From the NCBI RefSeq assembly GCF_014697475.1, contig NZ_JACJRV010000023.1, positions 1-64,000 on the forward strand: a stretch of 64,000 nucleotides of DNA. The letters are read 5' to 3'. The position numbers and the translations under genes are program-made. Numbering within the stretch: the stretch's first letter is position 1; each line of letters begins with the position of its first letter. Below, in pieces: positions 1,038 to 60,186 of this stretch. The notes below the pieces were generated by a model. That model made no database searches and was not told where the DNA came from. It saw only the letters and a list, made by a program, of their open reading frames with translations. This stretch comes from Nostoc sp. FACHB-152 (GTDB lineage Bacteria > Cyanobacteriota > Cyanobacteriia > Cyanobacteriales > Nostocaceae).

Positions 1038-2489
1038 TTAAGGTAAAAATTCACCTTCTCGTAGTTGTGATATGCCATTTTTCACAGCCTGGATAATGTG
1101 ATTGATGTCCTCATCTGTATGGGCTGTAGATAAAAACCCTCCATTACCTCTCAGCATAATTCCCTGGTCAAGTAGATGGTAATAAAGTAAATTATAAGCT
1201 AAGGAAATTTCATTATTTTCAGCATCTTCGTTGCTATCATTTTCTGAATAAACTGGGCCAAAAATTGAGCCAAAATTTGTAAGTTGGATAGGTAATTCTT
1301 CTTGCTCAAAGTAAGTATTCAGGGTTTTGACAAACTTAGTTGTACGTTGATTTAAGTCATTTTGTAGAGTAGAACCTTGGGTTTTTAAATGTTGTAAAAC
1401 TGCTTTAGCTGCTGCTAAAGCTAGGGGATGTTTGCAGTAAGTTCCCGCAAAAAAAGTAGTTTGCTGGTGAGGATATGATAAATCTCCATAATTCCACATT
1501 CCACCATCGATCGCATCCATAAAATTGGCTTTACCTGCAATGATGCCGATCGCTATTCCACCACCGACGATTTTACCATAGGTAGCTATGTCTGCTTCAA
1601 TGCCAAACCAAGCTTGTGCGCCACCTGGATGAATGCGAAAACCTGTAACCATTTCATCGAAAATTAATGCTATTCCCGATTCTTTTGTTAGTTTGCTGAG
1701 TTGTTGAAGAAAGGCTTGGGGTTGTAAATCCAAATTTTCTTTTTGAACTGGCTCAACTAAAACAGCAGCTAATTCTTGAGCATGATTAGCGATCGCGTCA
1801 AGCGATTCCTGTTCCCCATATTTTAAAACTAAAATATCTGCAACAAAATTAGCTAGTATTCCTGATGCAATGGGTACAGTTTGTAAGGCATCATTTATAG
1901 TTTTTACCTTCCCTAAAGTACCATCAAAATGACCATGATATGAGTTAGAAAATATAACAATTTTATTACGTCTTGTAATTGTTCGTGCCATCCTGATTGC
2001 TGTCATGATGGCTTCTGTACCTGTGTTGCTAAAGGCAACTCGCTCCATTTTTGTGAGTTCACAAATCAATTGAGCAACTTCACCAACAATTTCTGATTGG
2101 GAACCTAGTTGTAGACCTGTTTCTATTTGTACAGCTAATGCTTCTTTAATAAAAGGTGGATTATGACCAAATAGATTTACGCCAAATCCCATGACTAAAT
2201 CTATATATTCATTACCATCTACATCCCAGATTTTGCAGCCAGAAGAATGTTTGGTAACAATAGGGTAATAAATCTCTTTCAGAGGTAATTGGAAATCAAT
2301 AAAGGTTTTATTGTCAGCTAAAAATGGCCGACTAGCTTGGGCAAGATGTTTTGAGGTTTTAGTTTTATGGCTATAGCGATTGATAAAATCTTCTAAATAT
2401 TCTCGCTGACGTGGAGTTAGATTTATAGTCGATAATATTTCACCGATTTTTTTGGTGTCTGTTGGATAAATTTCTTGGGCGATAACCAT
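1038..2489 (-). CDS. PLP-dependent class III aminotransferase (GSA-like, AMT type)
   Basis: This 483-residue aminotransferase belongs to the glutamate-1-semialdehyde-like class III fold. The PLP-binding Lys is residue 306 in ATYGKIVGGG, the pyridine-binding Asp is residue 278 in FDEMVTGFR, and the phosphate-binding NTGTEA is at 155-160. Its N-terminal lead-in (LTPRQREYL, later IWDVDGNEYIDLVMGFG) resembles the aminotransferase domains built into hybrid PKS-NRPS proteins of the mycosubtilin and microcystin type, but here it is a free protein. Two roles fit. It could transaminate the aldehyde released by the terminal reductase domain, as MxcL does in myxochelin synthesis, or it could aminate a beta-keto intermediate on the PKS modules. 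The context, four to five genes after the PKS and right after the reductase gene, slightly favours the aldehyde role. The substrate is inferred only. Confidence 0.85.
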   Translation of the reverse strand: MVIAQEIYPTDTKKIGEILSTINLTPRQREYLEDFINRYSHKTKTSKHLAQASRPFLADNKTFIDFQLPLKEIYYPIVTKHSSGCKIWDVDGNEYIDLVMGFGVNLFGHNPPFIKEALAVQIETGLQLGSQSEIVGEVAQLICELTKMERVAFSNTGTEAIMTAIRMARTITRRNKIVIFSNSYHGHFDGTLGKVKTINDALQTVPIASGILANFVADILVLKYGEQESLDAIANHAQELAAVLVEPVQKENLDLQPQAFLQQLSKLTKESGIALIFDEMVTGFRIHPGGAQAWFGIEADIATYGKIVGGGIAIGIIAGKANFMDAIDGGMWNYGDLSYPHQQTTFFAGTYCKHPLALAAAKAVLQHLKTQGSTLQNDLNQRTTKFVKTLNTYFEQEELPIQLTNFGSIFGPVYSENDSNEDAENNEISLAYNLLYYHLLDQGIMLRGNGGFLSTAHTDEDINHIIQAVKNGISQLREGEFLP

Positions 2490-2515: not shown

Positions 2516-3262
2516 TTATTTAGTGCAAACAAAATAGGCTAAAGTAGCGTCTTCTGTTCCTGTGAGGATGTTTTCTTTGTTGTAGGATTCAACTTTTTTG
2601 AATCCTACATTTTGCAGAGCAGATAATACTTGTATTTGAGAATAGCCTTTAACTAACCAAGTAATATCGTGACGTTGCCAATTTTGGTTAATTAATTCAA
2701 ATATAGTAATATCGATTGTACCGATTTTTTCTTCTGAGTTATAGCTACGTCTTAATGCCCAAGCATATTCGTCTTGGATATCTCCAACCATTGAGTTATT
2801 CCAATCAGATTGATACCGCCTATCTAGGCTTAAGTCGAACATGAATATGCCATTAGGGAGAAGTGCTGTATATACGTTTTTAAATACGTTGGTTAATTCG
2901 TCTAGATTGATAACATGATTGAGTCCGTAATCTGTTGAAACTACCCCATGAAAGTTTGATGATAATTTAAAATCACGCACGTCATCAATGATGAATTTAG
3001 CACTGGGAGCGTTATCTCTGGCATATTTTATGAGTCTTTCAGAGCCATCAATTCCAGTGACTTGATATCCTTTTTGGACTAGTTTCTTAGCTAAATGTCC
3101 TGCGCCACAGCAAATATCAAGAACTTGAGCTTTTTGGGGAAGATGATTAAGTAATAATTGTTCTATATCAGGAAATTGCGATTCGCTAACTTCTGGCCCC
3201 CAAGTTTCATTGATGATACGTGCAAAGGAATCGTAAGCAGAATAACGAGTTGATGAAAGCAT
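2516..3262 (-). CDS. Class I SAM-dependent methyltransferase
   Basis: The 248-residue protein has a clear Rossmann methyltransferase core. Motif I is VLDICCGAGHLAKKL at about residues 46-60, followed by the acidic GIDGS strand and a DVRDFKL motif with the usual DD/DV pair. No signal peptide or membrane segment is present. It lies in the biosynthetic run between the terminal NRPS-reductase gene and the aminotransferase, with 26 bases to the latter. It could methylate the finished peptide, or supply the O-methyl group needed to turn hydroxymalonyl-ACP into methoxymalonyl-ACP, because no FkbG-type O-methyltransferase lies in the FkbH cassette. Sequence alone does not separate N-, O- or C-methylation. 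Confidence 0.8.
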   Translation of the reverse strand: MLSSTRYSAYDSFARIINETWGPEVSESQFPDIEQLLLNHLPQKAQVLDICCGAGHLAKKLVQKGYQVTGIDGSERLIKYARDNAPSAKFIIDDVRDFKLSSNFHGVVSTDYGLNHVINLDELTNVFKNVYTALLPNGIFMFDLSLDRRYQSDWNNSMVGDIQDEYAWALRRSYNSEEKIGTIDITIFELINQNWQRHDITWLVKGYSQIQVLSALQNVGFKKVESYNKENILTGTEDATLAYFVCTK

Positions 3263-3326: not shown

Positions 3327-6300
3327 TTAGTTATGGTTTGAGGGATTTTCTAAGGAACCACGGCTAATTAAATAAGAAAGATAAGTGGTTAACAATTGCC
3401 TATCCAGTGGTGGACAAATAATTGTAGTTTCTGCTAATCCAGTCAGGGTATTTTGAAAGTCAATTTGTTGGTTTGGGGAATCTTCTGTATTGGTGTTTTG
3501 AGATTCGCTATCAGTCAGTGTGCCAATGAGAGGATACAATGCATTTTCAGGCGATCGCTCAATTTCTTTTAATAGTTTTGAATGCCATTCTGGGTAGTAA
3601 ATTTGTTGAAGCGGATAGCCAAAAGAGACGATTGAGTTAACAACTTCCCTCCAATGTAAAGGTTGAGGGTTGATGATGTGAAAAACTTTGCCTAATGAGG
3701 TTGGTTGTTGTGATAAATAAATTATGGCTTGACTGGCATAATCGACAGGCGTTAAGTTAACCATCGCATCTTGCTTAGGTACACTGCCTAGTTGAATGCA
3801 GCCGCGAATCATTCTAAAAGTATGGTCATCAGGATTACAAACACCTGTTTTACTATCTCCAGAAATCCGTCCTGGTCGATATATAGATATGGGAATGCCG
3901 CGATCGCCTGCTATTTGGACTAATTTTTCTGCTACCCATTTACTTTGGGTATAGCCACTACTAATGTTTTGGCTGTGATTAATTGGTGTATGTTCTTGGA
4001 TGAGTTCTACAGCAGAATCAGCCGCACCAATAACACCAATGGTAGAAATAAAATGTACTGGCTTAACTTTAGTTTGTGCGGCTAATCTTAATATTTCTTG
4101 AGTTCCCAAGACATTCGCGGCTTTGAGTTGAGAATAAGGATAGGTAAAATTGACAAATGCGCCGTTATGATAAATGACATCAATTTGAGATGCGATCGCC
4201 GCAAATTGCTCTGATGAAAGTCCTAAAAGTGGCTGAGATAAATCTCCTATTAAGGGAATGATCCGTTGATTAAAACTTTCATTCCATAACAAATAGGATT
4301 TTAAATGATTTTGCAATCGTTCTGTGGCGATCGCCGTTGTTTTTGCCCGAATCAAACAATAGATATCTGCTGTAGTTTTTTGTAGGAGTTCGTAAAGTAA
4401 AAAAGCTCCTAAGAAACCTGTCGCACCTGTTAATAAAATAGCAGCAGGTGGAGTTTGTTTCTGTATATATTTAGCTGCGGGAACAATGCTTGAATCTAAA
4501 ACTGCTTCGGCATCAAGATTGATAGTTGAGCTATCTGCTATTTGTGTACTATCTATCTGTGCAGCTAACTCAGCAATAGTAGGTGCATCAAATAAAACTT
4601 TTAAGGGAAGTTCTACACAGAAGACTTTTCGGATTTTGGCGAGTAGTTGAGTGATGAGTAAAGAATGTCCACCCAACTCAAAGAAATTATCGTAGATTCC
4701 TATTTTTTCTAAACCTATTATTTCTGACCAAATTTGTGCTATTTGTCTTTCTAAATCTGTACCTGGTGCTACATAAAGTTGCTCTAGTTCGGCACGGGTT
4801 TGTTCAGGACTTGGTAGTGCTTGATAGTCAATTTTACCATTAGCTGTTAATGGTAATGCTTTGAGTAATACGAAAGTAGAGGGGATAGCGTATTCTGGAA
4901 GTTTATCTAAACAAAAGCTGCGAAGAACACTGGCGATCACCTGAGAATTCTGATTGCTCAAGCGGAACTGAGGACTAGTAACTATATATGCTACTAAACG
5001 TTTGTTACCAGATGTTTCTTCTGTTGCTATAACTACCACTTCTTGCACGCCTGAATGTTGTTTAAGCGTCGTTTCAATTTCCTCTAACTCGATGCGGAAA
5101 CCTCTAATTTTTACTTGGCGATCAACTCGTCCCAAAAATTCTAAATTCCCATCATTTAAATAGCGTACTTTGTCTCCTGTCTTGTATAAACGTGCTTGAG
5201 AATCATATACAAAGGGATTTTGAATAAATCTGGCGTTTGTAAGTTCTGGTTGATTTAAATAACCCCTGGCTAATCCCGCACCACCGATATACAACTCACC
5301 CGGTACACCGATAGGTACGAGTTGTAATTGTTCGTCTAAAACATAAACTTGAGTATTAGCTAAAGGTTGTCCCAAAGGAACGGTTGATGATAGTTGTCTT
5401 GTTTGTTTAGTGATTGAGTAAGTTAACGCTCCTACAGTTGTTTCTGTAGGGCCATAATGATTAAAAATCTGGCATTCAGGCGATAATTGTTGAATCTGCT
5501 TTATTAGTTGCCAAGTGCTGGTTTCACCACCTAAGATTAAACTCTTTTGAGGTAGGATTGAAGAGGTTGGAGATACAGCCAAAAGCGCAGTCAGATGAGA
5601 AGGAACTATTTTGAGATAGTCTATCGGATGGCGTTGAAAATAATCAGCGAGTGCTTGAGGATCGGCTGCTGTTTCTTGAGCAATTATATGCAGACATCCG
5701 CCTGTACACAATGCGGGAAAGATGACGGTATTACCCAAATCTGCTGCAAAGGTGGAAACTGTAGCAAAGCTAGCACCTTTTGCTAAGTTTAATCTGGCGA
5801 TGATGGCGTAAATATAGTTAACAAGTTGACGATGTTCGACTAAAACAGCTTTTGGTTGTCCTGTAGAACCAGAGGTATAGATGGCATATACTAAGTTTTC
5901 TGGCTGTACTGTAGTTGGGAACTCTTCTTGATTTTCTTGGTTGATTAGTTCCCAGTCCGTATCTAGACAAATTATTTGTGTAGTGTCAGTAGGAATTTTA
6001 TCAACTAGCGATCGCTGTGTTAAAACCACAGATACACCAGCATCTTGTAAACGATACCCTAAGGCTGTGGCTGGTAATGCTGAATCTAGGGGTAGGTAAG
6101 CACCTCCAGCTTTGAGGATACCCAAGATTGCAACTATGGTTTCTAGGGAACGCTCCATGTATACCCCTACTAATACTTCTGGTTTAACCCCTAGTTTTTG
6201 CAGATAATTTGCTAATTGATTAGAGCGAGAATTTAGTTGAGCGTAAGTTAATTTTTGGTCGGCAAATACAACAGCAATACTATCAGGTGTGCGTAATGCT

Positions 6301-7709
6301 TGTTCTGCAAATAGTTGTTGAAAATATTTATCTTGGGGATAATCTACTTGGGTGTTATTAAATTCGATTAACAATTGCTGACGCTTGTTATCAGTTAATA
6401 TTTCTAAATTATCAATTCGAGTGTCAGGAGCATCAACAGCACTTTCTAGTAAAGTCTGAAAATATCCAGCTAAAAGTTTGATAGCTTCTGCGCTAAATAA
6501 ATTCACATCATAGTCAAACTTAGCTGTTAAATAATCTATTTTTTGGTAACAGGAAAGTTTGATTTTAAATCGGTCTGTACAAGCAAACTGATTGTCAATT
6601 GAAAAGGAAACTTCCTCAGCATAGTACTTTGCTGTTTCTGTTTGAAACTCAAAACTAAAAGGTATATTGTCTGTAAATTCCGTCAAATTCTCCCAGGTTA
6701 AATATTCTTGCCATTCTCCAGATGCTTGTACTGATTCTCTAACTATTTGCAATACTTCTCTAAATAGTAAGTTACTGGATAAATTTACTGATATTGGTAC
6801 ATATTTGCTAAGAAGTCCGATGACTGTTTCTAATTCTTCATATTTACGTCCATCCGCAGCGATACCAATAACAATGTTTTCTTGTTGAGTCAATCGCCAT
6901 AATAAAATTTGCCACGAGCTAAGTAAAAAGTCAGAAATTGATGATTGATTTTTCTCAACTATCACTGCTATTTTAGCTAACAATCTAGACTCAATCTTAC
7001 ACTCATAAGAGCCAATGCTAAATTTACCAGAATCAGCTATTAGCTTATTCTCAAAAGGTAGCGATACTTTGGGTAGTTTAGAAAGAGAAAGATTATATTT
7101 TTCCCAATATTGTTTGCCAACTTCTGCGTCTGTATCTTCTAGTAATTCATTCTGCCATTCAGAAAATTGCAAATATTGTACAACTTCTTCGTTACTTAGC
7201 TCTAGACCTTGTAAGCAAGCACTATAACATTGACTAATTTCTTGGACTAAATTTTTGACTGACCAGCTATCAGCGCAAATTGCGGGGAGATTTAGCAGTA
7301 AAATTGACTTGTTTAGCGACAACTTAATTAGGGAAGTACGCAACAGCGAACTTTGCTCAAAATCCCAAGGAATTAACCTTTCTTGTTGATATAAAGATTC
7401 AAGTTGATTTGATTCTTCTAAATAGGTGCGATTGCTTAAATCAATTTCTTGCCAAAATAGCAATCCTTGAGCATTTATTTTCTGGATGGGAGTTTTAATT
7501 CCCGGTGGCTTAATAAAGCTAGTTCGCAGGATTTCGTGACGATTTATGACTTTTTCTAATGCTAATTTTAAGAAATCTACTTTCAAATTGCCTTCTATAG
7601 TGACAGCAGCCTGAACGCGATAAACACTGCTATCTTTTTGTAAATTCCAAATACGTTTTTGTTGCGGTGAAAGTCGAAATCCATTGATAAGTTTTTCTTG
7701 AGTCTGCAT
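3327..7709 (-). CDS. Terminal NRPS: C*(interface-like)-A(Asp)-PCP-thioester reductase
   Basis: This 1460-residue protein has four parts. Residues 1-430 form a condensation-like domain in which HHxxxDG is replaced by LPAICADSWS (141-150), so it should not catalyse peptide bonds; a second signature is GIAADGRKYEEL. Residues about 440-960 form an adenylation domain with YTSGSTGQPKAV and NHYGPTETTVG. My hand-read code is D-L-T-K-I-G-H-V-G-K, a classic Asp code. The PCP (FFELGGHSLL) follows, and then an NAD(P)H reductase with GATGFLG at 1095-1101 and catalytic Tyr1253/Lys1257 (YTQSK). The start ATG directly follows the stop of the preceding gene. The true condensation domain and a TauD hydroxylase sit at the end of that upstream protein, so together they form one Asp module with beta-hydroxylation. 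Release should be reductive, giving an aldehyde or alcohol. No thioesterase exists in the run. Confidence 0.93.
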   Translation of the reverse strand: MQTQEKLINGFRLSPQQKRIWNLQKDSSVYRVQAAVTIEGNLKVDFLKLALEKVINRHEILRTSFIKPPGIKTPIQKINAQGLLFWQEIDLSNRTYLEESNQLESLYQQERLIPWDFEQSSLLRTSLIKLSLNKSILLLNLPAICADSWSVKNLVQEISQCYSACLQGLELSNEEVVQYLQFSEWQNELLEDTDAEVGKQYWEKYNLSLSKLPKVSLPFENKLIADSGKFSIGSYECKIESRLLAKIAVIVEKNQSSISDFLLSSWQILLWRLTQQENIVIGIAADGRKYEELETVIGLLSKYVPISVNLSSNLLFREVLQIVRESVQASGEWQEYLTWENLTEFTDNIPFSFEFQTETAKYYAEEVSFSIDNQFACTDRFKIKLSCYQKIDYLTAKFDYDVNLFSAEAIKLLAGYFQTLLESAVDAPDTRIDNLEILTDNKRQQLLIEFNNTQVDYPQDKYFQQLFAEQALRTPDSIAVVFADQKLTYAQLNSRSNQLANYLQKLGVKPEVLVGVYMERSLETIVAILGILKAGGAYLPLDSALPATALGYRLQDAGVSVVLTQRSLVDKIPTDTTQIICLDTDWELINQENQEEFPTTVQPENLVYAIYTSGSTGQPKAVLVEHRQLVNYIYAIIARLNLAKGASFATVSTFAADLGNTVIFPALCTGGCLHIIAQETAADPQALADYFQRHPIDYLKIVPSHLTALLAVSPTSSILPQKSLILGGETSTWQLIKQIQQLSPECQIFNHYGPTETTVGALTYSITKQTRQLSSTVPLGQPLANTQVYVLDEQLQLVPIGVPGELYIGGAGLARGYLNQPELTNARFIQNPFVYDSQARLYKTGDKVRYLNDGNLEFLGRVDRQVKIRGFRIELEEIETTLKQHSGVQEVVVIATEETSGNKRLVAYIVTSPQFRLSNQNSQVIASVLRSFCLDKLPEYAIPSTFVLLKALPLTANGKIDYQALPSPEQTRAELEQLYVAPGTDLERQIAQIWSEIIGLEKIGIYDNFFELGGHSLLITQLLAKIRKVFCVELPLKVLFDAPTIAELAAQIDSTQIADSSTINLDAEAVLDSSIVPAAKYIQKQTPPAAILLTGATGFLGAFLLYELLQKTTADIYCLIRAKTTAIATERLQNHLKSYLLWNESFNQRIIPLIGDLSQPLLGLSSEQFAAIASQIDVIYHNGAFVNFTYPYSQLKAANVLGTQEILRLAAQTKVKPVHFISTIGVIGAADSAVELIQEHTPINHSQNISSGYTQSKWVAEKLVQIAGDRGIPISIYRPGRISGDSKTGVCNPDDHTFRMIRGCIQLGSVPKQDAMVNLTPVDYASQAIIYLSQQPTSLGKVFHIINPQPLHWREVVNSIVSFGYPLQQIYYPEWHSKLLKEIERSPENALYPLIGTLTDSESQNTNTEDSPNQQIDFQNTLTGLAETTIICPPLDRQLLTTYLSYLISRGSLENPSNHN

Positions 7710-10700
7710 TTATTTAACACCTAGTACTTCTATATTTTTAGCATTCACGATTTCGCCCATTGCTACGACAATCTTGCGACTTCCTACGTAGGGATTACGT
7801 GCGTGTGCAGCCAACATATTGTCGAGCATTAAAACATCTCCCTTTTGCCAAGGGAAAGCAATTTCAGCTTGTTGATAAACAGCAGTAACTTCATCAATTA
7901 CTGATTGCTCAATTGGCTTACCATCACCGTAATAAACATTTCGCGGTAGGTTGTTTTCACCGAACAATGATAAGAGAGACTCGCGGACTGGTGTATCTAA
8001 ATAAGCTATATGATGCAACTGAATTTGATTGAAAAATACTAATTCGCCTGTTTTGGAATGTTTAGCGATCGCTTGCCGAATTTCTTTCGTTTTTAAACCG
8101 CAGTCTGCCTTCCATTCCCACTCAATTCCATTTTGATTACAGAATCTTTCGACTGCTGATTTATCACTGGTATGAAAGAAGTTTTGCCAACTTACATCTA
8201 GTTCATCTGTGTAGTTACGGACATACATTAATCCCTTTTGGGCAAATTTTTCTCTGATTTCAGAATCTAGTAATTGATAAACTTTACGACAATCAACAAT
8301 TGGTGTTTCTCCCCGTTCTTGTGCTGGTTGTACACAGTAAAACCAAATTTTCATCGGCCATCTGTGCAGGTGAGAACTTTCATTGTGGAATAAAATAGCT
8401 TTATCTGCGGGATAAGGTGTAGAACCATATACCTTTCCACCTAAACCTTCACGGGGTAAATCACCATATTCACCAAATAATTCTGCACAAATAGCTTGAG
8501 CAAAGTTTTCAAAATCCGCTACAGAAGTGGTGTTAAATCCTCTAAACAGAATAGCACCATGTTTCAATAAATTAGTTTCAATAAATTCTCGATTGTTTTT
8601 AGCCCAATCGATGATATCCAAGTCACAGACATTAGGTTGACAAACTAAAGGTAAAGTTTCTCCTGGCTGAAGATAACTAGTTTTAATTAATTGTTCTTGA
8701 GTCAAGCTGATAGCTTTAGGCTTGACCATTTTAAATTTTTGGAAGTTAGCAGACTGACGTTTAGTTTTTTCGCTAATTTGTTGTTGTTTCTCCTCTGGAG
8801 TCAGCATTTCTAAAGAATTAATCTTGGTATCTGGCTGCGCTACAATGCTAGTAAGGAGGGTTTTCAAGTGTGTGGAAAAGCAAGCGATCGCACTCTCATC
8901 AAATAAATCTGTTTTGTATCTCCAATTAAAGGAAATTTTCTGTTCTATTTCTACAGCAAATAAAGCTAAATCAAACTTTGATTGTCCATCTTCAATTTCT
9001 AGAGGATGTACTTTTAAATCAGTCAATTCAATTTCTGATGTAGGTGTATTTTGCAAAACAAACAGCACTTGAAATAGAGGCGTTTGCTGTAAATCTCTTT
9101 CTGTTTTTAACTCTTCTACTAGTTTGTCGAAAGGTAAATCTTGGTGAGCATAAGCTTGTAAAGTAACTTCACGCACTCGTTGTAATAACTCTTTAAAACT
9201 GGGATTCCCACGCATATCTGTGCGTAACACTAACAGGTTAATAAAAAACCCAATTAGTAATTCAGTTTTGCTCTGAGTACGATTAGCAATATCTGTACCG
9301 ACAACAATATCATCTAGATTGGTGTAGCGGTAAAGCAAAGTTTGTAAACCTGCCAGTAAAGTCATAAATAAACTGACATTTTCTTGGCGACTCAATTCGA
9401 GAATCTGTTGCGATAAATCTCCAGATAGTTCAAAACTGTAACTCGCACCTTTAAAAGTAGGATTAGCGGGTTGAGGACGCTGAATAGGTAACTTTAAGGT
9501 TGGTAAATTACCACCTAATAATTGTTTTTTCCAATAGGCTAATTGAGATTCTAAAACATTTCCTTGTAACCATTGCCTTTGCCAAACAGCAAAATCAGCA
9601 TATTGTATTGGTAAAGGTGCTAAAGGGTTAGGCTTACCATGAGAAAAAGCCTCATACAAAGTTACCAGTTCTTGAACTAAAATCCCCATCGACCAACCAT
9701 CAGAAATAATGTGGTGCATTGTCAGCAGCAATATGTGTTCTGTCTCATGCAGCCGCAGCAGTTTGACTCGTAATAAAGGACAACAAGTGAGATCAAAAGG
9801 CGTTAATTCTTCTTCTGTAGCCAATTTCTGCACTTGGTTAGCTTGTTCTGATGCTTCTAATGCTTGCAAGTCTACAATCGGCAATGACAAATCTAAATTT
9901 GGCACAATAACTTGCATTGGCTGTCCTTCTACAGCAACAAAGCTAGTCCGTAAACTTTCGTGTCTTTGTACAACCGCATCGAAGCTATCTTTTAGTGCAG
10001 ATATATCTAGTAAACCCGTAAGACGAACAGGTAGAGAAACGTTGTAGAGGGGACTATCGGGTACTAGCTGGCTGATAAACCATAACCGTTGTTGAGCAAA
10101 GGAGAGGGGTAAATCTCCATTGCGCGAAACAGGTTGAATAGGAGGATATTCGATAATTTTTGCCGACTGCAACGAGGTTTGGATATTTTCGGCTAACCCA
10201 GCAACAGTAGGGTTGGTAAATAAACAACTCAACGGTACTTCCACATTGAAAGCATCTCGCACCCGTGAGATAACTTGAGTAGCCAGCAGTGAGTGTCCAC
10301 CAAGATTGAAGAAGTTATCGTGAATACCTATCTGCTGTACAGCTAAAATTTCAGACCAGATTGATACTAGTTTTTCTTCGATGGGATTACTTGCAACCAC
10401 ATAATCAGCTTCTAACTCTAGTCTTGTCTGATTGGGAGAGGGAAGCGATCGCCTGTCTATCTTACCATTTGCTGTCAGTGGCCAAGCATCAACTAGCACA
10501 AACGCTGAAGGCAACATATACTCAGGCAGCTTTGATTGGAGATACTGGCGCAGTTCTGGTACAAGCTGGCGAGCAATTTTACCCTGCAAGGGATTGTTTG
10601 CGTAATTATGCCAAGATTTGAGGTATTGTTTTTTTATTGGAAAAGCAACTATTTTTCCTGTTGCTGGGGTTTGTCGCTGGAATAGAACATCATAACAGCC

Positions 10701-13700
10701 ATCAATACCACCATTCGTCCAAATAATTTCTATTTTGTAAGGTAATTTGTCACTTAAAGCCCATATATCTTCGGGTTCTACAGCTTCTTTTAAAATCTCT
10801 GGCTGCAAAGACCGCAGTTCACCCACTGTTTGCGGTGCTGATTCCTGTTTGAGCAATTCTAAAGTTTTCACTTCTGCTATCAAACGCGCATCTAGTACTC
10901 GGCGCAGTCCTAGTATTTGCGGTTGGGTGGACTCTAATAACTGTACAAGCGCAGTTAATGTTAATCCTTGCTGTTGCCAGTCTAACCATGTAACATCTCG
11001 TGGAATGTCAACTTGATTACCAACATGAAGAATTACGTCATAACGAAACAGGGTAAGTTCGTTGCGGTCATAGCCACGCTTCGGTTGAATTTGGACATAG
11101 GTAATTTGAGGTAAATGCTGCGGTAATGTGAGAAAGAAAGCCGGATCAACCACCAGTTCTTCTTCTTGATTCAGGCATTTTTGAACTTGCTGTTGTAATT
11201 CCTCAATCGATAAAGAATCAGGCGCATTATACAAAGCAATTGAAGTGTGAAACGCACTCAGTAGTGCTAAATTACGCACATCTCCGACAAAAATTTTACC
11301 TCCAGATTCAACTAATTGACTTGCCCCTTCTAGAACGCGCAATAGATAGTTAATACTCGGAAAATATTGGATAACTGAGTTAATAATTACAGTATCAAAA
11401 CTAGTAGATTGAATTTCCTCAAAGTTATCTGCTAGCCTTTGAAACAACCGGACTTGAGGTAGTGGCTTTTGTTGAGTGTCTAAAACTTTTCGTACATAAT
11501 TCAAAGCGGTGGCTGAGAAATCTGTTGCCCAATATTGGCTACAGTGGGGTGCAACACGCAGCAGCAATAATCCAGTTCCACAACCAATTTCTAGGACACG
11601 CTTTGGTTGACAAGCTAAAATTCTCTCAACTGTCGAATTGACCCAATACTGCATTTGGTCTTGCGGTATTGGTAAATTTGTATAGCTACTATTCCAACCA
11701 GTAAGATTTAACGATGCCTCGTGATTGGAATTAGTCTGACTATAGGTTTCATCATAGAGCGATCGCCACTCTGAAACTTGTTGTGCCAGCAATTCCTGTT
11801 CATTATATAAAGAAGACGGAATCAAATAAGATATCAATCGATTATCTTTGCTGATGACTAAAGCATCTTCTACAGACTCATGTTGTCTGAGACTCGCTTC
11901 TATTTCCCCTAACTCAATACGAAAGCCACGAATTTTAACTTGCTGATCGATGCGTCCGAGGTATTCAATATTGCCATCTGAAAGATAACGGGCTAAATCA
12001 CCAGTTTTATATAACTTTGCTCCTGGCTGATTACTAAAAGGATTGTCAATAAATCTTTCTAAAGTTAATTCGGGACGATTTAAATAACCTCTAGCGACAC
12101 CAGCACCACCAATATACAGTTCACCCACAACTCCAATAGGAACTAGCTGTAAATGGTTATCTAAAATATATATTTCAGTATTGGCAATCGGACGACCAAT
12201 GGGAATATTCCCTAAAGGGAAGCTTTTTTTGTCCACTTCATAAATACAGCATCCTACTACTGTTTCTGTGGGGCCATATTCGTTAATTAATCTAGTATGT
12301 GGTGCTTGTTTTTGCCAGAAGGAAGTGATTTTCTCTGATAAAGCTTCACCACCAATAATAAATGCTTGCGTGTTGATGTTTACTTCTTCACCACCTAATA
12401 AATCCTTAAGTATTTCTAAATGAGCAGGGGTAATTTTTACCAAACTGAACTTACAAGCAGAACACAAAGCTTGTCTAAGTGCTTCTATTTCATCTTCCTC
12501 TGGTAAAAGGACTACTTTACGCCCTACTAATAAAGGAGAGAATAAACTGGTAATCGTGGCATCAAAAGCAATAGAGGAATTAACTGTAGATCCTTCTCCA
12601 TCAGCAACATTATAGGCTTTTGTACACCAGCTTAAATAATTCACCATACCACTATGAACAATCATTGTGCCTTTAGGCTTTCCAGTGGAACCGGAAGTAT
12701 AAATTATGTAAGCCAAATTGTCTGGTTTGACGGCACTGTCAGGGTTATTTTGAGAGTAATCAGCAAAGTTTTGCCAATCCTTATCCAGACAGATTGTTTG
12801 TGCTTGGTGTTGTGGAAGTTTGTCTAATAGTTTGTTTTGAGTTAATAGGACTGGTAATTGTGAATCTGCTAGCATATATGCTAAACGTTCTGGCGGATAT
12901 GTAGGGTCTAAGGGTAGATAAGCACCACCAGCTTTGAGAATTCCTAACAGTCCTACCATCATTTCTAGAGAACGATTGATGCATATACCTACCAATACTT
13001 CTGGTGCAACTCCCAATGTTTGTAAATGATGTGCTAGTTGGTTAGCCTGGTTGTTTAATTCCCGGTAAGTTAATTGTTGTTCTTTAAATACAACCGCTAC
13101 TGCATCCGGTGTTTTTTCTGCCTGGATTTCAATTAACTGATGAACACACAAATCCTGCGCCCAGGTTTTTTGAGTATCATTCCACTCTACAAGCAGTTGG
13201 CGTTTTTCAGTCTCTGCTAATAATGGCAATTCAGACAGCTTGGCTTGAGGGTTAGCAACAATACCAGCAAGCAAGGTTTGGAAATTTTCTATTATCCGCG
13301 CAATTGTAGCTGCATCAAATAATTCAGTGCTATATTCCAAACTGGCGCTAATTTCCCCATTAATTTCTTCTGATAATGTCAAATTTAAATCAAATGCTGC
13401 TGTTTGATTTTCGTATTCCACCATGCTTAAAGTCAAATCAGGTAAATCCAGCACTTCCATAGGTGTATTCTGGAGTTGAAAAGACACCTGAAAAAGTGGA
13501 TTGTAGCTTAATAAATTACGCTCTGGTTGAAGTTCTTCAACTATTTTTTCAAAAGGAAAATCTTGGCGATCGTAAGCTCCTAATGTCACTTCACGCACTC
13601 TCACCAGCAACTCTCTAAAAGTCAGGTTGCTATCAAGATGAGTTCGCAATACTAAAGAGTTGACAAAAAAACCAATGAGTTTTTCCGTTTCGGCTCGGTT

Positions 13701-14660
13701 ACGATTAGCAATTGGTGAACCTATGCAGATATCCTCTTGACCAGTGTAGCGGTGCAATAAAACTTTAAAAGCTGCTAGCAAAGTCATAAACAAAGTTACT
13801 CCTTCACTGCGACTTAAAGAATTTAATGCTTCAGTTAAATCCTTGGATAAAACAAAACATTGAGTCGCACCTTCCAAAGTAGAAATTGTTGGTCGTGGTC
13901 GGTCAGTGGGTAGATGCAGTATTGGAGGATTGGCTAATTGCTGCTTCCAGTAAGCTAGTTGCTCGTCCCAAACCTTACCTTGTAGCCAATTTCTTTGCCA
14001 AACAGCAAAGTCAGGGTATTGAATGGGCAATTCTGGCAGAGAAGGTACTTTACCATGATAAAAAGCTGGATAGAGTACGGCTAATTCATCCACTAGCACC
14101 CCTATCGACCAAATATCAGAAACGATATGGTGCATGGTAAATACCATCACATATTCTGTTTGATTTAACTGCAATAGCTTTACCCGCAGTAACGGGTCTC
14201 GTGTCAAATCAAAAGGAATTAGAGATTCTTCAATAATTATTTTTTGTAATTCTTGCTCTTGATCTGCTGATGGTACTTCACACAAATCAATTATTGATAG
14301 TTTTAAGCTTAAGGATGAAGCAATTACTTGAACAGGTTTTCCTTCTACGGCAGTAAAAGTAGTTCTTAGAGCTTCATGTCGTCTAATAATCTCATTGATG
14401 CTTTGTTCTAGTGCTGCTATGTTTAGCTTACCTTGCAAACGCACAGCATGAGTAATGTTATAGAAAACATTACCTGGTTGCAGTTGTTCAATAAACCACA
14501 GCCTTTCTTGGGCAAAAGATAAAGGAAAAGAGTTAGATTCTCGACTTTGAGCAGTAAGAACGGTAGGTGCAATTTTCTCTGTTTGCTGGTTCAGCCGTTG
14601 CAATAGCAGTTCGCGCTTTTCAGGAGAAAGAGCAGCAATTCGTTTAGTAATGTCTGTCAT
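7710..14660 (-). CDS. NRPS: C-A(Asn-like, N-MT)-PCP-C-TauD hydroxylase
   Basis: The order over 2316 residues is: C with HHIVSDIWS; A with YTSGSTGKPKGT and NEYGPTETVVG; an N-methyltransferase inserted after A8 (RVLEIGCGTGLLLL); the A-domain tail (LPEYMLPSAF, NGKID); PCP (FFNLGGHSLL); a second C with intact HHIISDGWS; and, from about residue 1985, a Fe(II)/2-oxoglutarate oxygenase of the TauD/SyrP type. The oxygenase has His2092-x-Glu2094, distal His2286 and Arg2295. The hand-read code D-A-T-K-I-G-E-V-G-K is Asn-like, so N-methyl-Asn is predicted. The final C-TauD part has no A domain of its own and must work with the C*-A(Asp)-PCP of the next protein, where the oxygenase would make beta-hydroxy-Asp. 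A good ribosome site (AGGGAGAA) precedes the start, 18 bases after the previous stop. Confidence 0.93.
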   Translation of the reverse strand: MTDITKRIAALSPEKRELLLQRLNQQTEKIAPTVLTAQSRESNSFPLSFAQERLWFIEQLQPGNVFYNITHAVRLQGKLNIAALEQSINEIIRRHEALRTTFTAVEGKPVQVIASSLSLKLSIIDLCEVPSADQEQELQKIIIEESLIPFDLTRDPLLRVKLLQLNQTEYVMVFTMHHIVSDIWSIGVLVDELAVLYPAFYHGKVPSLPELPIQYPDFAVWQRNWLQGKVWDEQLAYWKQQLANPPILHLPTDRPRPTISTLEGATQCFVLSKDLTEALNSLSRSEGVTLFMTLLAAFKVLLHRYTGQEDICIGSPIANRNRAETEKLIGFFVNSLVLRTHLDSNLTFRELLVRVREVTLGAYDRQDFPFEKIVEELQPERNLLSYNPLFQVSFQLQNTPMEVLDLPDLTLSMVEYENQTAAFDLNLTLSEEINGEISASLEYSTELFDAATIARIIENFQTLLAGIVANPQAKLSELPLLAETEKRQLLVEWNDTQKTWAQDLCVHQLIEIQAEKTPDAVAVVFKEQQLTYRELNNQANQLAHHLQTLGVAPEVLVGICINRSLEMMVGLLGILKAGGAYLPLDPTYPPERLAYMLADSQLPVLLTQNKLLDKLPQHQAQTICLDKDWQNFADYSQNNPDSAVKPDNLAYIIYTSGSTGKPKGTMIVHSGMVNYLSWCTKAYNVADGEGSTVNSSIAFDATITSLFSPLLVGRKVVLLPEEDEIEALRQALCSACKFSLVKITPAHLEILKDLLGGEEVNINTQAFIIGGEALSEKITSFWQKQAPHTRLINEYGPTETVVGCCIYEVDKKSFPLGNIPIGRPIANTEIYILDNHLQLVPIGVVGELYIGGAGVARGYLNRPELTLERFIDNPFSNQPGAKLYKTGDLARYLSDGNIEYLGRIDQQVKIRGFRIELGEIEASLRQHESVEDALVISKDNRLISYLIPSSLYNEQELLAQQVSEWRSLYDETYSQTNSNHEASLNLTGWNSSYTNLPIPQDQMQYWVNSTVERILACQPKRVLEIGCGTGLLLLRVAPHCSQYWATDFSATALNYVRKVLDTQQKPLPQVRLFQRLADNFEEIQSTSFDTVIINSVIQYFPSINYLLRVLEGASQLVESGGKIFVGDVRNLALLSAFHTSIALYNAPDSLSIEELQQQVQKCLNQEEELVVDPAFFLTLPQHLPQITYVQIQPKRGYDRNELTLFRYDVILHVGNQVDIPRDVTWLDWQQQGLTLTALVQLLESTQPQILGLRRVLDARLIAEVKTLELLKQESAPQTVGELRSLQPEILKEAVEPEDIWALSDKLPYKIEIIWTNGGIDGCYDVLFQRQTPATGKIVAFPIKKQYLKSWHNYANNPLQGKIARQLVPELRQYLQSKLPEYMLPSAFVLVDAWPLTANGKIDRRSLPSPNQTRLELEADYVVASNPIEEKLVSIWSEILAVQQIGIHDNFFNLGGHSLLATQVISRVRDAFNVEVPLSCLFTNPTVAGLAENIQTSLQSAKIIEYPPIQPVSRNGDLPLSFAQQRLWFISQLVPDSPLYNVSLPVRLTGLLDISALKDSFDAVVQRHESLRTSFVAVEGQPMQVIVPNLDLSLPIVDLQALEASEQANQVQKLATEEELTPFDLTCCPLLRVKLLRLHETEHILLLTMHHIISDGWSMGILVQELVTLYEAFSHGKPNPLAPLPIQYADFAVWQRQWLQGNVLESQLAYWKKQLLGGNLPTLKLPIQRPQPANPTFKGASYSFELSGDLSQQILELSRQENVSLFMTLLAGLQTLLYRYTNLDDIVVGTDIANRTQSKTELLIGFFINLLVLRTDMRGNPSFKELLQRVREVTLQAYAHQDLPFDKLVEELKTERDLQQTPLFQVLFVLQNTPTSEIELTDLKVHPLEIEDGQSKFDLALFAVEIEQKISFNWRYKTDLFDESAIACFSTHLKTLLTSIVAQPDTKINSLEMLTPEEKQQQISEKTKRQSANFQKFKMVKPKAISLTQEQLIKTSYLQPGETLPLVCQPNVCDLDIIDWAKNNREFIETNLLKHGAILFRGFNTTSVADFENFAQAICAELFGEYGDLPREGLGGKVYGSTPYPADKAILFHNESSHLHRWPMKIWFYCVQPAQERGETPIVDCRKVYQLLDSEIREKFAQKGLMYVRNYTDELDVSWQNFFHTSDKSAVERFCNQNGIEWEWKADCGLKTKEIRQAIAKHSKTGELVFFNQIQLHHIAYLDTPVRESLLSLFGENNLPRNVYYGDGKPIEQSVIDEVTAVYQQAEIAFPWQKGDVLMLDNMLAAHARNPYVGSRKIVVAMGEIVNAKNIEVLGVK

Positions 14661-14678: not shown

Positions 14679-17600
14679 TTAAATATTGTCTGCTTCTAAC
14701 TCTGCTAACATTTCGGACAGCATTGCCTCATCTGTTTGTTGTGCTAATGTTTGGGCTACCATAACCGCTAAATCAGCAACAGTAGGAGCATCAAAAAACT
14801 GGCGCAAAGGTAACTCTACTTGCAAAGTTTGACGTAATCGCGAAATTACTTGTGTGGCTAGTAGAGAATGTCCTCCTAACTCAAAGAAACGGTCATGAAT
14901 TCCCACTTGCTCAACACCGAGAATCTCTGACCAAATTTGAGCGATCGCTTCTTCTACAGGTGTCCGAGGTGCGACAAAATTAGCTGATACTTTAATTTTT
15001 TCTGGTGCGGGTAGTGCTTTGATGTCTACTTTCCCGTTAGGCAGATGGGGTAAAGAATCTAACTGCACAAATGCCGATGGCATCATGTACTCAGGTAACT
15101 TTTCTTGGAGGAAATGCCGTAGTTCATCAGAAGTGGGTGAGTATTCCTGATGCGGTACTATGTAAGCTACTAAACGCTTGTTTCCTGGTTCATCTTCTCT
15201 GGCAATAACTACAAGCGATCGCACTTGTGGATGTTGACTTAGTACTGCTTCAATCTCACTTAATTCAATCCGAAAACCTCGGATTTTCACTTGCTGATCG
15301 ATTCGTCCTAGAAACTCAATATTACCGTTTGGAAGATAACGTGCTAAATCTCCAGTTTTGTAAAGGCGAACCCCTTCTTGATTGCTAAATGGATTTGGGA
15401 TAAATTTTTGTGCAGTCAAATCAGGGCGATTGAGGTAGCCTTGCGCTAAACCCTCGCCACTAATATATAGTTCTCCAGCTACGCCTAAAGGAACTGGATG
15501 CAAATGCGAATCTAGTAAATAGATTTGCGTGTTAGCGATCGGGCGACCGATAGATATTTGCGTTCCTATTTCCGTCCTATGACAATGATATACGGTACTC
15601 CAAACGGTTCCTTCAGTAGGGCCATATTCATTAAACAGAGACGTGTTTGGTCGCAATTCCCAATGACGCATCACCAGAATTTTTGGACAAGGTTCGCCAG
15701 CCACAATCACGGTACGCAGTGATGCCAACTTTTCTGGTTGTGCTTGTTCTAAAAGTAGGGCATAAAGTGAAGGCAGGGTTAATGTATGTGATATCTGATT
15801 TTGGGCAATTAGTTCAATCAGTTCGGGTAAATCCAGTTCTCCACCTTCTTGAGGAAAGAACAGCGTTCCGCCTTGACATAAAGTCCAAAAAATTCCGGCA
15901 ACTGAACTATCAAAAGCAAAAGATGAGAGTAATAAGAAACTGGTTAAAGGCTCTTGATAGTAATTAATCCGAGCAATGGTTGAGTGAACTAGATTACGAT
16001 GGGTAATTTTTACGCCTTTAGGTTTACCTGTAGAACCAGAGGTGTAGATAACATAAACTAAATTTTCAGATGTGACTTCAGTAATGGGGTTAGCTGAATT
16101 TTGTTGGGTAATAATGTCCCATTCTGCATCTAAACAGATTAATTTGGCTTTGTGTTCAGGCAAATTTTCTACTAGGTGTTGCTGCGTCAGTAAAACAGGT
16201 GTTTGAGTATCTAATAATAAAAATTCTAGTCGTTCTTTGGGATATTTTGGATCTAGTGGTAGATATGCGCCGCCAGCTTTGAGGATACCCAGAATGCCAA
16301 CAATCATATCCAGGGAACGCTCAACGCAAATCCCCACCAATACCTCTGGTTTTACTCCTAATTGTCTGAGGTAATGTGCTAGTTGATTAGCACGAATATT
16401 TAATTCACTATAAGTTAGTTTTTGATTGTTAAAGCTAACAGCTATTTTGTTTGGTGCTTTTTCGACTTGCTCCTCAAATAGCTGATGTATGCACTTGTTT
16501 TTTGGGTAATCAACCTGCGTATTGTTAAATTCAACTAATAGTTGCTGTAATTCATAGAAATTGAGGATTTCTAACTCACTGATAGTAGCTGACGGCTGGT
16601 TGACTGTACTTTTTAACAACGTCTCAAAATTTCCTGCCACGCTTTGAATAGTTTCTGCGGAAAATAAGTGAGAATCATAATAAAAATCAACAATCAACGC
16701 ATCATTTTGATACCAACAGGAGCATTTAACTTTAAACCTGTCAGTACAAATATATTGTTTGTAAATTGAAAATTTAACATCCGTATTACAATAACTAGCT
16801 GGCTGTAAATTCGATTCAAAACCAAAAGGACAATAGCTGGCAATATTTATATTTGAAATTAGTTCCCAATTAAAACTATCCTGCCATTCATAAATTTCTG
16901 CAATAGATTTATTATTGTAATTTAATATATTCTTAATTTGGCTACTTTCTGATAAATAACAATGTAGAGGTAAATATTTTGTCAATAGTCCTAAAGCACT
17001 ACTTAATTCCTCATATTGACGGCCATCACTTGCCATACCAATTACAATATCTGGCTGTCCAGTCAAACGCATTAGTAATATTTGCCAGCAAGTTAATAAA
17101 AATATATCTACAGAAGTCTGATATTCTTGCGCCAATGATAATATTTTTTCTGTAATTTCAGGATTGATTTTTACAGAAAAAACTTGCGGTTGCAAATCTG
17201 AATCAACTTCTTGCTTATTTTCTAATGGTAGATGCAAATCCAAAAACTGAAAAATATCTTGCTTACGCCAATATTCTCTTCCTATTTTTGTATCTTCAGC
17301 CTCAAGTAACTCATTTTGCCATTCAGCGATATCAGCATATTGAATTGAGTCATCAGATGATTCTTCACCAGTTGAGAAAAGTTGATAATAATTGCTAAGT
17401 TCACGTACTAAGTTTCTCAGCGTTGCCGAATCAGCGCAAAGTGCTGGCAAACTAATTATCAATAGATATTTTTGAGACGATAGAGTAAATAAAGATGCGT
17501 AAACAATAGAGTTCTGCTCTAAATTGAAAGGTAGTTGAAGCATTTGAGCAAAATTTTTGTCAATCTCTATCTCTTGCTGAGAAGGAGAATAATCACTCAA

Positions 17601-17873
17601 GTTACATTCTTCTTGCCATAAGATGCTGCCATCTGTTATTACCTGCACAGGAATATTCATACCAGGTAAGCATTTAAAATTAGTACGAAAAATTTCCTGC
17701 CGATTGACAATTTCTTGCAAAGCTTGTTTGAGGATAGCTGTATTGAGACTGCCTTCTATCAGAACAGCACATTGAGAGCGATAAGGCTGTTGATTATTAT
17801 TTTCTTGCTGCAACAGCCACAGATATTTCTGCTGTGGTGAAAGTCGTATTCCTTCTAAAACTTCTGTTCGCAT
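14679..17873 (-). CDS. NRPS: C*(interface-like)-A(His-like)-PCP
   Basis: The 1064-residue protein begins with a condensation-like domain in which HHxxxDG is replaced by LPALCADS (142-149) and the later signature reads GMASDGRQYEEL. The terminal module has both features, and no other C domain in the window does. The adenylation domain follows (YTSGSTGKPKGV, NEYGPTEGTVW), then a PCP (FFELGGHSLL) and a short acidic tail. My hand-aligned specificity code is D-S-A-T-I-A-E-V-W-K, which shares D-S...A-E-V...K with histidine codes such as that of bacitracin synthetase. With the free TauD oxygenase just upstream, beta-hydroxy-histidine is the likely product. The real condensation domain is the last domain of the protein encoded two genes upstream. 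A strong GGATAGGAAG ribosome site precedes the start. The code match should be checked by profile alignment. Confidence 0.92.
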   Translation of the reverse strand: MRTEVLEGIRLSPQQKYLWLLQQENNNQQPYRSQCAVLIEGSLNTAILKQALQEIVNRQEIFRTNFKCLPGMNIPVQVITDGSILWQEECNLSDYSPSQQEIEIDKNFAQMLQLPFNLEQNSIVYASLFTLSSQKYLLIISLPALCADSATLRNLVRELSNYYQLFSTGEESSDDSIQYADIAEWQNELLEAEDTKIGREYWRKQDIFQFLDLHLPLENKQEVDSDLQPQVFSVKINPEITEKILSLAQEYQTSVDIFLLTCWQILLMRLTGQPDIVIGMASDGRQYEELSSALGLLTKYLPLHCYLSESSQIKNILNYNNKSIAEIYEWQDSFNWELISNINIASYCPFGFESNLQPASYCNTDVKFSIYKQYICTDRFKVKCSCWYQNDALIVDFYYDSHLFSAETIQSVAGNFETLLKSTVNQPSATISELEILNFYELQQLLVEFNNTQVDYPKNKCIHQLFEEQVEKAPNKIAVSFNNQKLTYSELNIRANQLAHYLRQLGVKPEVLVGICVERSLDMIVGILGILKAGGAYLPLDPKYPKERLEFLLLDTQTPVLLTQQHLVENLPEHKAKLICLDAEWDIITQQNSANPITEVTSENLVYVIYTSGSTGKPKGVKITHRNLVHSTIARINYYQEPLTSFLLLSSFAFDSSVAGIFWTLCQGGTLFFPQEGGELDLPELIELIAQNQISHTLTLPSLYALLLEQAQPEKLASLRTVIVAGEPCPKILVMRHWELRPNTSLFNEYGPTEGTVWSTVYHCHRTEIGTQISIGRPIANTQIYLLDSHLHPVPLGVAGELYISGEGLAQGYLNRPDLTAQKFIPNPFSNQEGVRLYKTGDLARYLPNGNIEFLGRIDQQVKIRGFRIELSEIEAVLSQHPQVRSLVVIAREDEPGNKRLVAYIVPHQEYSPTSDELRHFLQEKLPEYMMPSAFVQLDSLPHLPNGKVDIKALPAPEKIKVSANFVAPRTPVEEAIAQIWSEILGVEQVGIHDRFFELGGHSLLATQVISRLRQTLQVELPLRQFFDAPTVADLAVMVAQTLAQQTDEAMLSEMLAELEADNI

Positions 17874-17977
17874 CTTCCTATCCTTTCGTGATGATAAATA
17901 AAGTTAACTAGTTTTTATTATTGTTATTAACTATTGCTAATATTCTCATTTTTAATAAACAAAAATAAATAGTAATC
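17874..17977 (-). promoter_or_regulatory. AT-rich gap with Fur-like half site, possible internal promoter
   Basis: This 104-base gap is the largest inside the run of NRPS genes. It is very AT-rich and on the minus strand contains AATGAGAAT at about 17942-17950, the core half of Fur-type iron boxes, upstream of the strong ribosome site of the next gene. An internal iron-regulated promoter is possible but rests on a half site only. Confidence 0.25.
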
Positions 17978-33378: not shown

Positions 33379-33432
33379 AATAATATCTGAATAAATTTTT
33401 AAATATATGTACCTATTCTTGACTCTCAAAAA

Positions 33433-34503: not shown

Positions 34504-34535
34504 AGTCTATTTTCTCAGATATTTAATGCAATATA

Positions 34536-35720: not shown

Positions 35721-35974
35721 GATACTATTTTTGCTATAGAAGCATTTTTACGCTCAACTAAATTGGTGAGGGAATTGATAGTGCGGAAATTATCAAACTC
35801 CAAGTCTTCGTTTTCAATAGTGATTTGAAATTCTTGTTCTATAAATAAAACAAGTTGCATAGCAAACATAGAATTAACAAACCCTAAAGAAAAAATATCT
35901 TCGTCAACTTGCAAATCATGATTGCCAAAAAATCTAGAAAGGAATGCTTTAATTTGGGTTTGAATTTTGTTCAT
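35717..35974 (-). CDS. Free acyl carrier protein (FkbJ type)
   Basis: The 85-residue protein has a carrier-protein fold. The phosphopantetheine attachment Ser35 lies in LGFVNSMFAM, a divergent version of the usual DSL motif that is common in FkbJ-like ACPs. It should carry the glyceryl, hydroxymalonyl or methoxymalonyl unit while FkbH and the dehydrogenases act, and then hand it to a PKS acyltransferase. It is 19 bases from the 3-hydroxyacyl dehydrogenase gene and overlaps the next gene by 4 bases. Confidence 0.88.
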   Translation of the reverse strand: MNKIQTQIKAFLSRFFGNHDLQVDEDIFSLGFVNSMFAMQLVLFIEQEFQITIENEDLEFDNFRTINSLTNLVERKNASIAKIVS

Positions 35975-35993
35975 TGTGCTTGATAATTCCTAT

Positions 35994-52428: not shown

Positions 52429-52849
52429 TTTTATTTTCAACAGATGCACTTAATAAACTGCTGGTTTTCGCTCTCACCAAGAAAAATCGGTCATCAATCC
52501 TGAATATCTAGGCAAATTGCAACCGTAATAAAAATAAACTTGCAATTACTGAATTTGCATTTGTTTGTTTACTTAGCTGTAGGTCTTGACCATTGATGAT
52601 TAGTTTAGCCAACCACCGCTTATACCGAAATTAGAAGGCTGATGCTCATTTATGCAATTAATTCTCAATATTATTGAGAGTTATTTTTATTTAGACTGAA
52701 TTACTTTACCGAGAATTAATACTATTAAGCAATAGAATAGTAATGAGTAGATTTTATGAAAATTAAGTTTATGATAATTTTTTAATATATGTTTAGATAT
52801 GACCAAGTCCTGTTGAGACAGGGTGTAGAGGGTAGGAGGTAATAAAGAC
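52429..52849 (-). promoter_or_regulatory. Leader/promoter region of the biosynthetic operon
   Basis: About 420 AT-rich bases precede the FAAL-NRPS gene with no credible reading frame. They contain a 17-base perfect palindrome (52663-52679) and other Fur-like pieces such as TGATAAT near 52772. This is the only large gap before the run of 15 genes, so the main promoter should be here. No convincing -35/-10 pair could be fixed by eye. Confidence 0.5.
52663..52679. promoter_or_regulatory. 17-base palindrome TCTCAATATTATTGAGA, possible Fur box
   Basis: Perfect 8-1-8 inverted repeat upstream of the biosynthetic operon, followed by a T/A-rich tail. The 7-1-7 geometry and the TTGAGAG-N-TTATTT continuation fit iron-regulator (Fur/FurA) sites, and a siderophore operon is expected to be Fur-controlled. 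The core is not the exact TGATAATnATTATCA consensus. Confidence 0.45.
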
Positions 52850-55960: not shown

Positions 55961-55983
55961 TGTGGATTCAATAAAAATCAAGG

Positions 55984-60168: not shown

Positions 60169-60186
60169 AGTTAATATTTTCCAGAT

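Follow-up and report, generated by a model that had tools for sequence, protein, structure and literature searches.

The X-domain of glycopeptide synthetases recruits P450s, and IBH and TBH hydroxylases together with an interface domain were reportedly described by Reitz in 2019. Among siderophores, the paper on cyanochelin B describes a product with two threo-β-hydroxyaspartate (β-OH-Asp) residues, of which the one at position 4, after the fused hydroxylase, was assigned as L by the authors from gene order, and states that UV light makes β-OH-Asp siderophores release iron (PMC12628792). For potashchelin, a C-TauD-C-A_Asp arrangement (C, condensation; A, adenylation domain) is reported to give L-threo-β-OH-Asp adjoining the fatty acid; the abstract and results attribute the L-threo form to the fused enzyme, whereas the introduction states the reverse assignment (PMC7100376). 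Here we describe a stretch of 64,000 nucleotides from Nostoc sp. FACHB-152 (contig NZ_JACJRV010000023.1, positions 1 to 64,000; hereafter the window), in which two adjacent genes encode a TauD oxygenase fused to a C domain (P0002) and, opening the next polypeptide (P0001), a condensation-type (interface-type) domain located between oxygenase and A domain, denoted C*. Judging from the genes, it is highly probable that this unit constitutes the last, β-hydroxyaspartate module of a lipopeptide siderophore line of the cyanochelin/potashchelin kind, in which C* would recruit the tethered TauD onto Asp bound to the peptidyl carrier protein (PCP) domain as Asp-S-PCP. The module architecture is already published, and the unit in the window is an additional case of it.

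Analysis of P0002 reveals that its TauD domain matches PF02668 over residues 2015–2300 (E 1.3e-42) and carries the triad H2092, E2094 and H2286, so that both the family match and the HxD/E...H motif of TauD/TfdA enzymes are found; the residue after HxE is Ser2095. In the C* domain of P0001, LPAICADS replaces HHxxxDG (LPAICADSWS begins at residue 141), which gives the combination of a C fold, a missing HHxxxDG and a position between oxygenase and A domain that defines an interface domain. The code of the following A domain, with nine residues read at motif positions (DLTKIGHVG) and the tenth (Lys) assumed, is an Asp code. As expected for the cyanochelin/potashchelin type, the TauD oxygenase adjoins a module that has an Asp code and an additional C-type domain preceding its A domain. 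The terminal reductase scores 377.5 bits against TIGR01746 (cut-off 213.35), and the in-frame TAA/ATG junction between the two genes is also found in Nostoc sp. XA010 (locus L009 of our survey). All genes concerned lie on the minus strand; coordinates are given in Table 1.

Table 1. Positions in the window of the domains of the two hydroxylase modules and of possible tailoring genes
Feature	Position	Strand	Basis
P0002, C-A-MT-PCP-C-TauD (MT, methyltransferase)	7710..14660	-	Pfam Condensation x2, AMP-binding, methyltransferase, PP-binding, TauD
P0001, C*-A-PCP-reductase	3327..7709	-	Pfam Condensation 12-447, AMP-binding, PP-binding, NAD_binding_4
C domain of P0002, residues 1511-1965	8766..10130	-	Pfam Condensation; HHIISDG intact
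TauD Fe(II)/2-oxoglutarate oxygenase, P0002 residues 1991-2316	7713..8690	-	Pfam PF02668, triad residues
Gene boundary P0002/P0001	7707..7712	-	P0002 TAA stop, then directly in-frame P0001 ATG
C* (interface-type) domain, P0001 residues 1-455	6345..7709	-	Pfam Condensation; condensation-domain fold
A domain of P0001, code DLTKIGHVG (Asp)	4800..6320	-	Pfam, motif-position code reading
PCP domain of P0001	4557..4745	-	Pfam PP-binding
Thioester reductase domain of P0001	3345..4454	-	TIGR01746; GATGFLG and YTQSK motifs present
Module 1, second C domain of P0005	19117..20481	-	Pfam, bounds
Module 1, standalone TauD P0004	17978..19024	-	H133, E135, H326; residue after HxE = Gly
Module 1, P0003 C*-A-PCP, code DSALIAEVW (His)	14679..17873	-	Pfam, motifs
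Class I methyltransferase, possible tailoring enzyme	2516..3262	-	Pfam Methyltransf_25
Class III aminotransferase, proposed to aminate released aldehyde	1038..2489	-	Pfam Aminotran_3

These observations bear out what the initial annotation had read from the sequence, namely an oxygenase fused C-terminally to a C-domain protein with these same triad residues, a C* motif opening the next polypeptide, and an Asp code. The interval it had proposed (3327–9000) covers a real unit but ends inside the fused C domain, whose far edge lies near position 10130. The assignment as a split β-hydroxylase module, with a non-canonical C* opening the next polypeptide, is therefore supported at the level of domains and motifs. 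β-OH-Asp, which had likewise been predicted, is well supported as the predicted product residue of the P0002/P0001 unit, because cyanochelin B contains β-OH-Asp and the C-TauD plus C*-A(Asp) arrangement recurs in its cluster. As a separate observation, the P0002 A domain, which has the code DATKIGEVG and an accompanying MT, has as its XA010 counterpart a different A domain without MT (56% identity, dS 1.4), the flanking C domains being 88–90% identical; this looks like an A-domain exchange, the XA010 domain being, we assume, Thr-type.

From the domains, motifs, code, gene order, tree placement and TauD/C* co-variation observed we infer the following route. P0001 would activate Asp and load its own PCP; the inactive C* would then recruit the TauD domain that P0002 carries as a tethered C-terminal end, and this TauD would hydroxylate Asp-S-PCP, the presumed PCP-bound substrate, at C-β using Fe(II), O2 and 2-oxoglutarate. 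Next, the upstream peptide would be joined to the hydroxylated Asp by the C domain of P0002, whose active site is intact. Since no epimerization (E) domain is present, L-threo-β-OH-Asp would be the expected configuration. The reductase domain would release an aldehyde, probably converted to an amine by the downstream aminotransferase. Of 23 reductase loci, 9 have less than 1.4 kb after the reductase and are excluded from the count; in the 14 others, which have 1.4 kb or more, an aminotransferase follows the reductase in 9, the window among them, and for this reason an amine end is forecast for the product, although cyanochelin B, with its ethanolamine end, does not follow this pattern.

In order to place the unit among its relatives, a profile search of genome contigs was made, whose best 80 matches correspond to 78 loci, and 34 regions from 28 of 386 sampled cyanobacterial genomes matching at E 1e-40 were added, plus plasmid records. 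The pooled sources gave 160 distinct TauD sequences, all of them retrieved by a single profile (A1). A code together with complete TauD, C*, C and A domains was available for 95 of them, dereplicated to 80 for distances and 72 for trees; every row of both sets was selected for having C*. The order TauD, then C*-A, then C-A-C-TauD, then C*-A recurs, for example in L009, L014, L038, L050, L067 and L071 (PCPs being outside the query); XA010 is the best match among those listed, with 93% identity to P0004. Pseudomonadota likewise have cases of a fused C-TauD upstream of a C* module that is Asp-coded (L204, L205, L207, L209); the potashchelin producer, Halomonas sp. MG34, is gammaproteobacterial. 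Another group of Pseudomonadota TauDs, with HNEQ (among L192–L215), has no C* found directly downstream in 17 of 18 cases and a code, where read, of type DMISxGxLx; these are probably another hydroxylase type.

C* comes directly after the fused TauD (TauD_f) in 37 of 44 rows; the remaining seven have no domain-bearing open reading frame in the available downstream DNA, six of them ending at most 1.3 kb from its edge and one (L083) having about 2.6 kb. The domain queries matched no domain after TauD in its own polypeptide in any of 221 distinct sequences (the 160 and 61 new ones from 71 additional events), a count in which some open reading frames stop at the edge of available DNA, and in the 160 the tail C-terminal to TauD is at most 31 residues long. 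Other hydroxylase types may differ from this always-split pattern, since all TauDs were found with one profile. The HHxxxD motif is present in all 131 ordinary upstream C domains vs. 4 of 113 C*.

Comparison of pairwise distances among the 80 modules points to C* as the partner of the oxygenase. TauD distance correlates with that of C* (r 0.50; partial 0.42 after accounting for A and C), shows no correlation with that of the neighbouring C domain (r 0.06; partial -0.06), and follows that of A (0.30; partial -0.01) only through the other domains; C* and A distances are themselves correlated (0.63; partial 0.55). The TauD-C* correlation exceeds the TauD-C one in 300 of 300 resamplings, both for all rows and for standalone rows only; in the latter (52 rows) the partial values are 0.33 for TauD-C* and 0.25 for TauD-A. 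The 300 of 300 result also holds with the six long rows removed, where the partial TauD-C* value is 0.49.

The trees of TauD, C* and C were "quick" trees, the one of C* having six long branches. In the TauD tree (72 rows), the fused TauD of the window belongs to a set of 20 rows on a starred branch (99), all fused and all Asp-coded, and the C* domains of these 20 rows fall within one set of 23 rows of the C* tree (98, starred). The standalone TauD of the window belongs to a set of eight rows (100, starred) with mixed codes (His 3, Asp 3, DATKxGEVG 2), and the C* of P0003 groups, at an unstarred 85, with Asp-coded rows from a different TauD clade. Six changes between the fused and the standalone state are needed on the TauD tree. 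At the level of these trees, the pairing of TauD and C* is clear for the fused clade, with its C* in one set, and loose for the standalone clade, whose C* lie in three places.

An improbable alternative is that C*, as a condensation domain in decay, plays no part in hydroxylation, TauD reaching the PCP by its C-domain tether alone. It draws on the lost active-site motif of C*, on the identities to XA010 (81–82% for C* vs. 90 and 93% for the TauDs), and on the fact that the two C* have the highest dN (0.091 and 0.094) among non-exchanged domains in that comparison; the split of the standalone TauD clade across the C* tree raises its weight, and so does the fused subset treated below. The dN/dS values (ratio of nonsynonymous to synonymous substitution rates) vs. 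XA010 nevertheless stay well under 1: C* gives 0.27 (P0003) and 0.19 (P0001, first 293 codons), the TauDs 0.09 and 0.18, and the C domain before the fused TauD 0.15. C* is thus, by this measure, under purifying selection, and its recurrent position after the fused TauD, its single set in the fused clade and the resamplings argue against mere decay as well.

Several observations weigh against recruitment of TauD by C* and the route built on it. In the fused rows alone (28), TauD has partial correlations of 0.28 with C*, 0.55 with C and 0.67 with A, and the TauD-C* correlation exceeds the TauD-C one in 253 of 300 resamplings, so that the link to C* is less specific precisely where the window module belongs, TauD there also tracking C and A. 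The C* domains of the eight-row standalone TauD clade are scattered over three places of the C* tree, and the four domains mentioned above retain HHxxxD although they are called C*. Neither predicted fold fixes an arrangement: TauD and C* folded as one chain (mean pLDDT 89.4, pTM 0.61) form good domains with no settled mutual position, and the C-TauD fold (pLDDT 84.1, pTM 0.54) shows a disordered, low-confidence stretch (469–476) before TauD. Finally, the rule that fused hydroxylases give S and standalone ones R is the published authors' own, and its reach is limited by PMC7100376; L-threo is for this reason only a forecast.

The structure predictions thus yielded well-formed TauD and C* domains without an arrangement between them, and a rigid TauD-C* or C-TauD assembly is unsupported by either fold. 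The low-confidence stretch before TauD fits a loose tether in the model. Matches of the C* fold in the PDB (50 shown of 769) are condensation-type domains, including the glycopeptide X-domains 4tx2, 4tx3 and 6m7l; by sequence, solved relatives of the TauD family are 1y0z and 9yut. Recruitment of the tethered TauD by C* remains our preferred reading, and the sequences give partial support to the view that the oxygenase and its inactive C domain, though encoded in separate proteins, tend to move as a pair.

The initial annotation had also seen in the two modules of the window the same logic twice, what looked like the copies of a duplication at different steps towards gene fusion, and a natural pair for study. 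The architecture is indeed the same, the order C, TauD, C*, A, PCP occurring twice in one operon, whereas the substrate is not: the A codes differ, and the two modules are no matched pair because module 1 has a His-type code, DSALIAEVW. A paired duplication within this cluster, with one copy fused later, is hardly credible in view of the trees, which were proposed as a check for shared history and in which the two modules are sisters in none of TauD, C* and C. Constraining the two window rows to group together is penalised by 226 log units for TauD, 126 for C* and 108 for C, with approximately unbiased (AU) test p values, on the same quick trees, of 1.7e-36, 1.6e-4 and 3.5e-4, respectively. 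The distances within the window pair, with the median of modules in brackets, are 0.88 (0.73) for TauD, 1.05 (1.14) for C*, 0.72 (0.79) for C and 0.80 (0.76) for A, so that the two are separated by roughly the distance of any pair of modules. AU tests and distances rule out a recent event, to which the rejection is confined; a very old duplication of the whole family may be compatible with the data. That both modules are Asp-coded is ruled out by the His code.

Among all TauD columns, the residue after HxE is the best separator of A codes. In 112 rows (24 His, 70 Asp and 18 D-x-T-K-x-G-E, or GE, codes) it is H16, G7 and F1 for His; M34, S27, N6, L1, F1 and K1 for Asp; N14, S2, G1 and L1 for GE. 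The training misfits are thus N6, L1, F1 and K1 (Asp), F1 (His) and S2, G1 and L1 (GE). Because a scan of every TauD column had singled out the marker, it was checked on held-out modules (71 events, 61 distinct new sequences, 28 of them scored, those left unscored being duplicates or lacking a found C*, a code or a classed code), and the rule was fixed before scoring. Among the 28 usable modules, 23 received a call and all 23 calls were right (20 Asp, 3 His); the other five, all Asp-coded, have Leu or Gln after HxE. With 25 Asp, 3 His and no GE code, this set is weak beyond Asp. L164, a C* module with Asn at the marker and an unclassed code, was left unscored. A tree-aware pair test of the marker was not significant; starred branches offered it no more than 3 to 6 independent pairs, too few for a decision. 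In the window, Ser in the fused and Gly in the standalone TauD agree with the Asp and His codes.

The same marker bears on the idea that the oxygenase acts on free Asp or another residue and that the A domain alone sets the product, which we regard as very improbable. The mixed codes of the eight-row standalone clade speak for it, and because of them A code and oxygenase are not locked together there; on the other side, Asp codes are found in 20 of 20 rows of the fused clade, and the residue following HxE is for the most part consistent with the A code. Hydroxylation of carrier-bound Asp remains the presumed reaction. Beyond this, one may tentatively suppose, in a proposal which we rate as rather unlikely, that TauD and C* form a portable two-part unit whose contact doubles as an inter-synthetase docking joint, and that the residue after HxE identifies the hydroxylated carrier-bound amino acid, Met or Ser pointing to Asp, His or Gly to His, and Asn to the D-x-T-K-x-G-E code. 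If true, transplanting the TauD and C* pair to another module would carry wiring and hydroxylation along. In any case, the survey puts numbers on the idea of an inactive C domain as oxygenase partner, offers a testable substrate marker and reveals an always-split joint of the line that could guide engineering of hydroxylated peptides.

By its wider gene content, the region is a siderophore locus. Domains of P0001–P0005 were named by Pfam search and those of P0006 and P0012 by motifs and phmmer queries; the names of P0007–P0011, FAAL and acyl carrier protein (ACP) come from reading of the translations, without profile search. By gene order the line starts with FAAL-ACP-C-A-MT-PCP (45796–52449), followed by two polyketide synthase (PKS) genes and a block (33433–36848; named from translations) with 3-hydroxyacyl-CoA dehydrogenase, a small ACP (35717–35974), acyl-CoA dehydrogenase and an FkbH-like protein, a combination that hints at hydroxy- or methoxymalonyl-ACP as extender unit of the PKS genes. 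A three-module non-ribosomal peptide synthetase ending in E (22171–33429) and the C-PCP-C protein P0005 (19033–22158) come next, and the line ends with the standalone TauD (17978–19024), C*-A-PCP (14679–17873), P0002 and P0001, downstream of which lie the methyltransferase and the class III aminotransferase. The His code of module 1 leads us to predict β-OH-His alongside β-OH-Asp within one cyanobacterial siderophore (14679–19024); the only NCBIfam match of P0004, TIGR02410, is far below its cut-off. Siderophore uptake genes (54914–62255) lie upstream of the line: a major facilitator superfamily (MFS) protein, a periplasmic binding protein, a TonB receptor, an ATP-binding cassette (ABC) ATPase and two FecCD permeases.

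P0005 contains no A domain by Pfam. It has homologues along nearly its full length in L075 (54%) and L122 (50%), which suggests that this module without A is being maintained; in XA010 the similarity is confined to the PCP-C half (84%). A penicillin amidase-family protein is found at the window edge (62351–64000), as another is in the L. boryana cluster; as a guess, it may trim the acyl chain.

Among known systems, the X-domain of glycopeptide synthetases (PDB 4tx2; 4tx3 with OxyB; 6m7l with OxyA) is a C-fold domain complexed with an oxygenase and provides an analogy only. IBH and TBH hydroxylases, and CyanoBH_Asp1/2 (PMC12971057), have in common with the window a condensation-family domain beside an NRPS (non-ribosomal peptide synthetase) β-hydroxylase. 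Potashchelin of Halomonas sp. MG34, compared by its description in PMC7100376, resembles the window in that PtcB ends with a TauD preceded by a C domain, with C-A_Asp-PCP following, and in having a second, standalone hydroxylase; it differs in its thioesterase release and in both residues being Asp. The cyanochelin B cluster of Leptolyngbya sp. NIES-3755 (CcsFGH with the fused hydroxylase, CcsI, CcsK, CcsL; PMC12628792) has the same C-TauD fusion. On its plasmid, C-TauD_f (L151) is followed 17 bases on by C*-A with the code DLTKIGHVG, identical to that of the window, and identities between the fused units are 65% for TauD, 39% for C*, 53% for C and 55% for A. A second, standalone TauD module, a terminal reductase, PKS genes and an adjacent receptor gene are likewise shared. 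The order of the two modules is different, however, and both are Asp modules in cyanochelin B; the reductase is on a Gly module, giving ethanolamine according to the same text (PMC12628792), and no aminotransferase lies within 11 kb after it, whereas the window is distinguished by its His module and its FkbH-like block.

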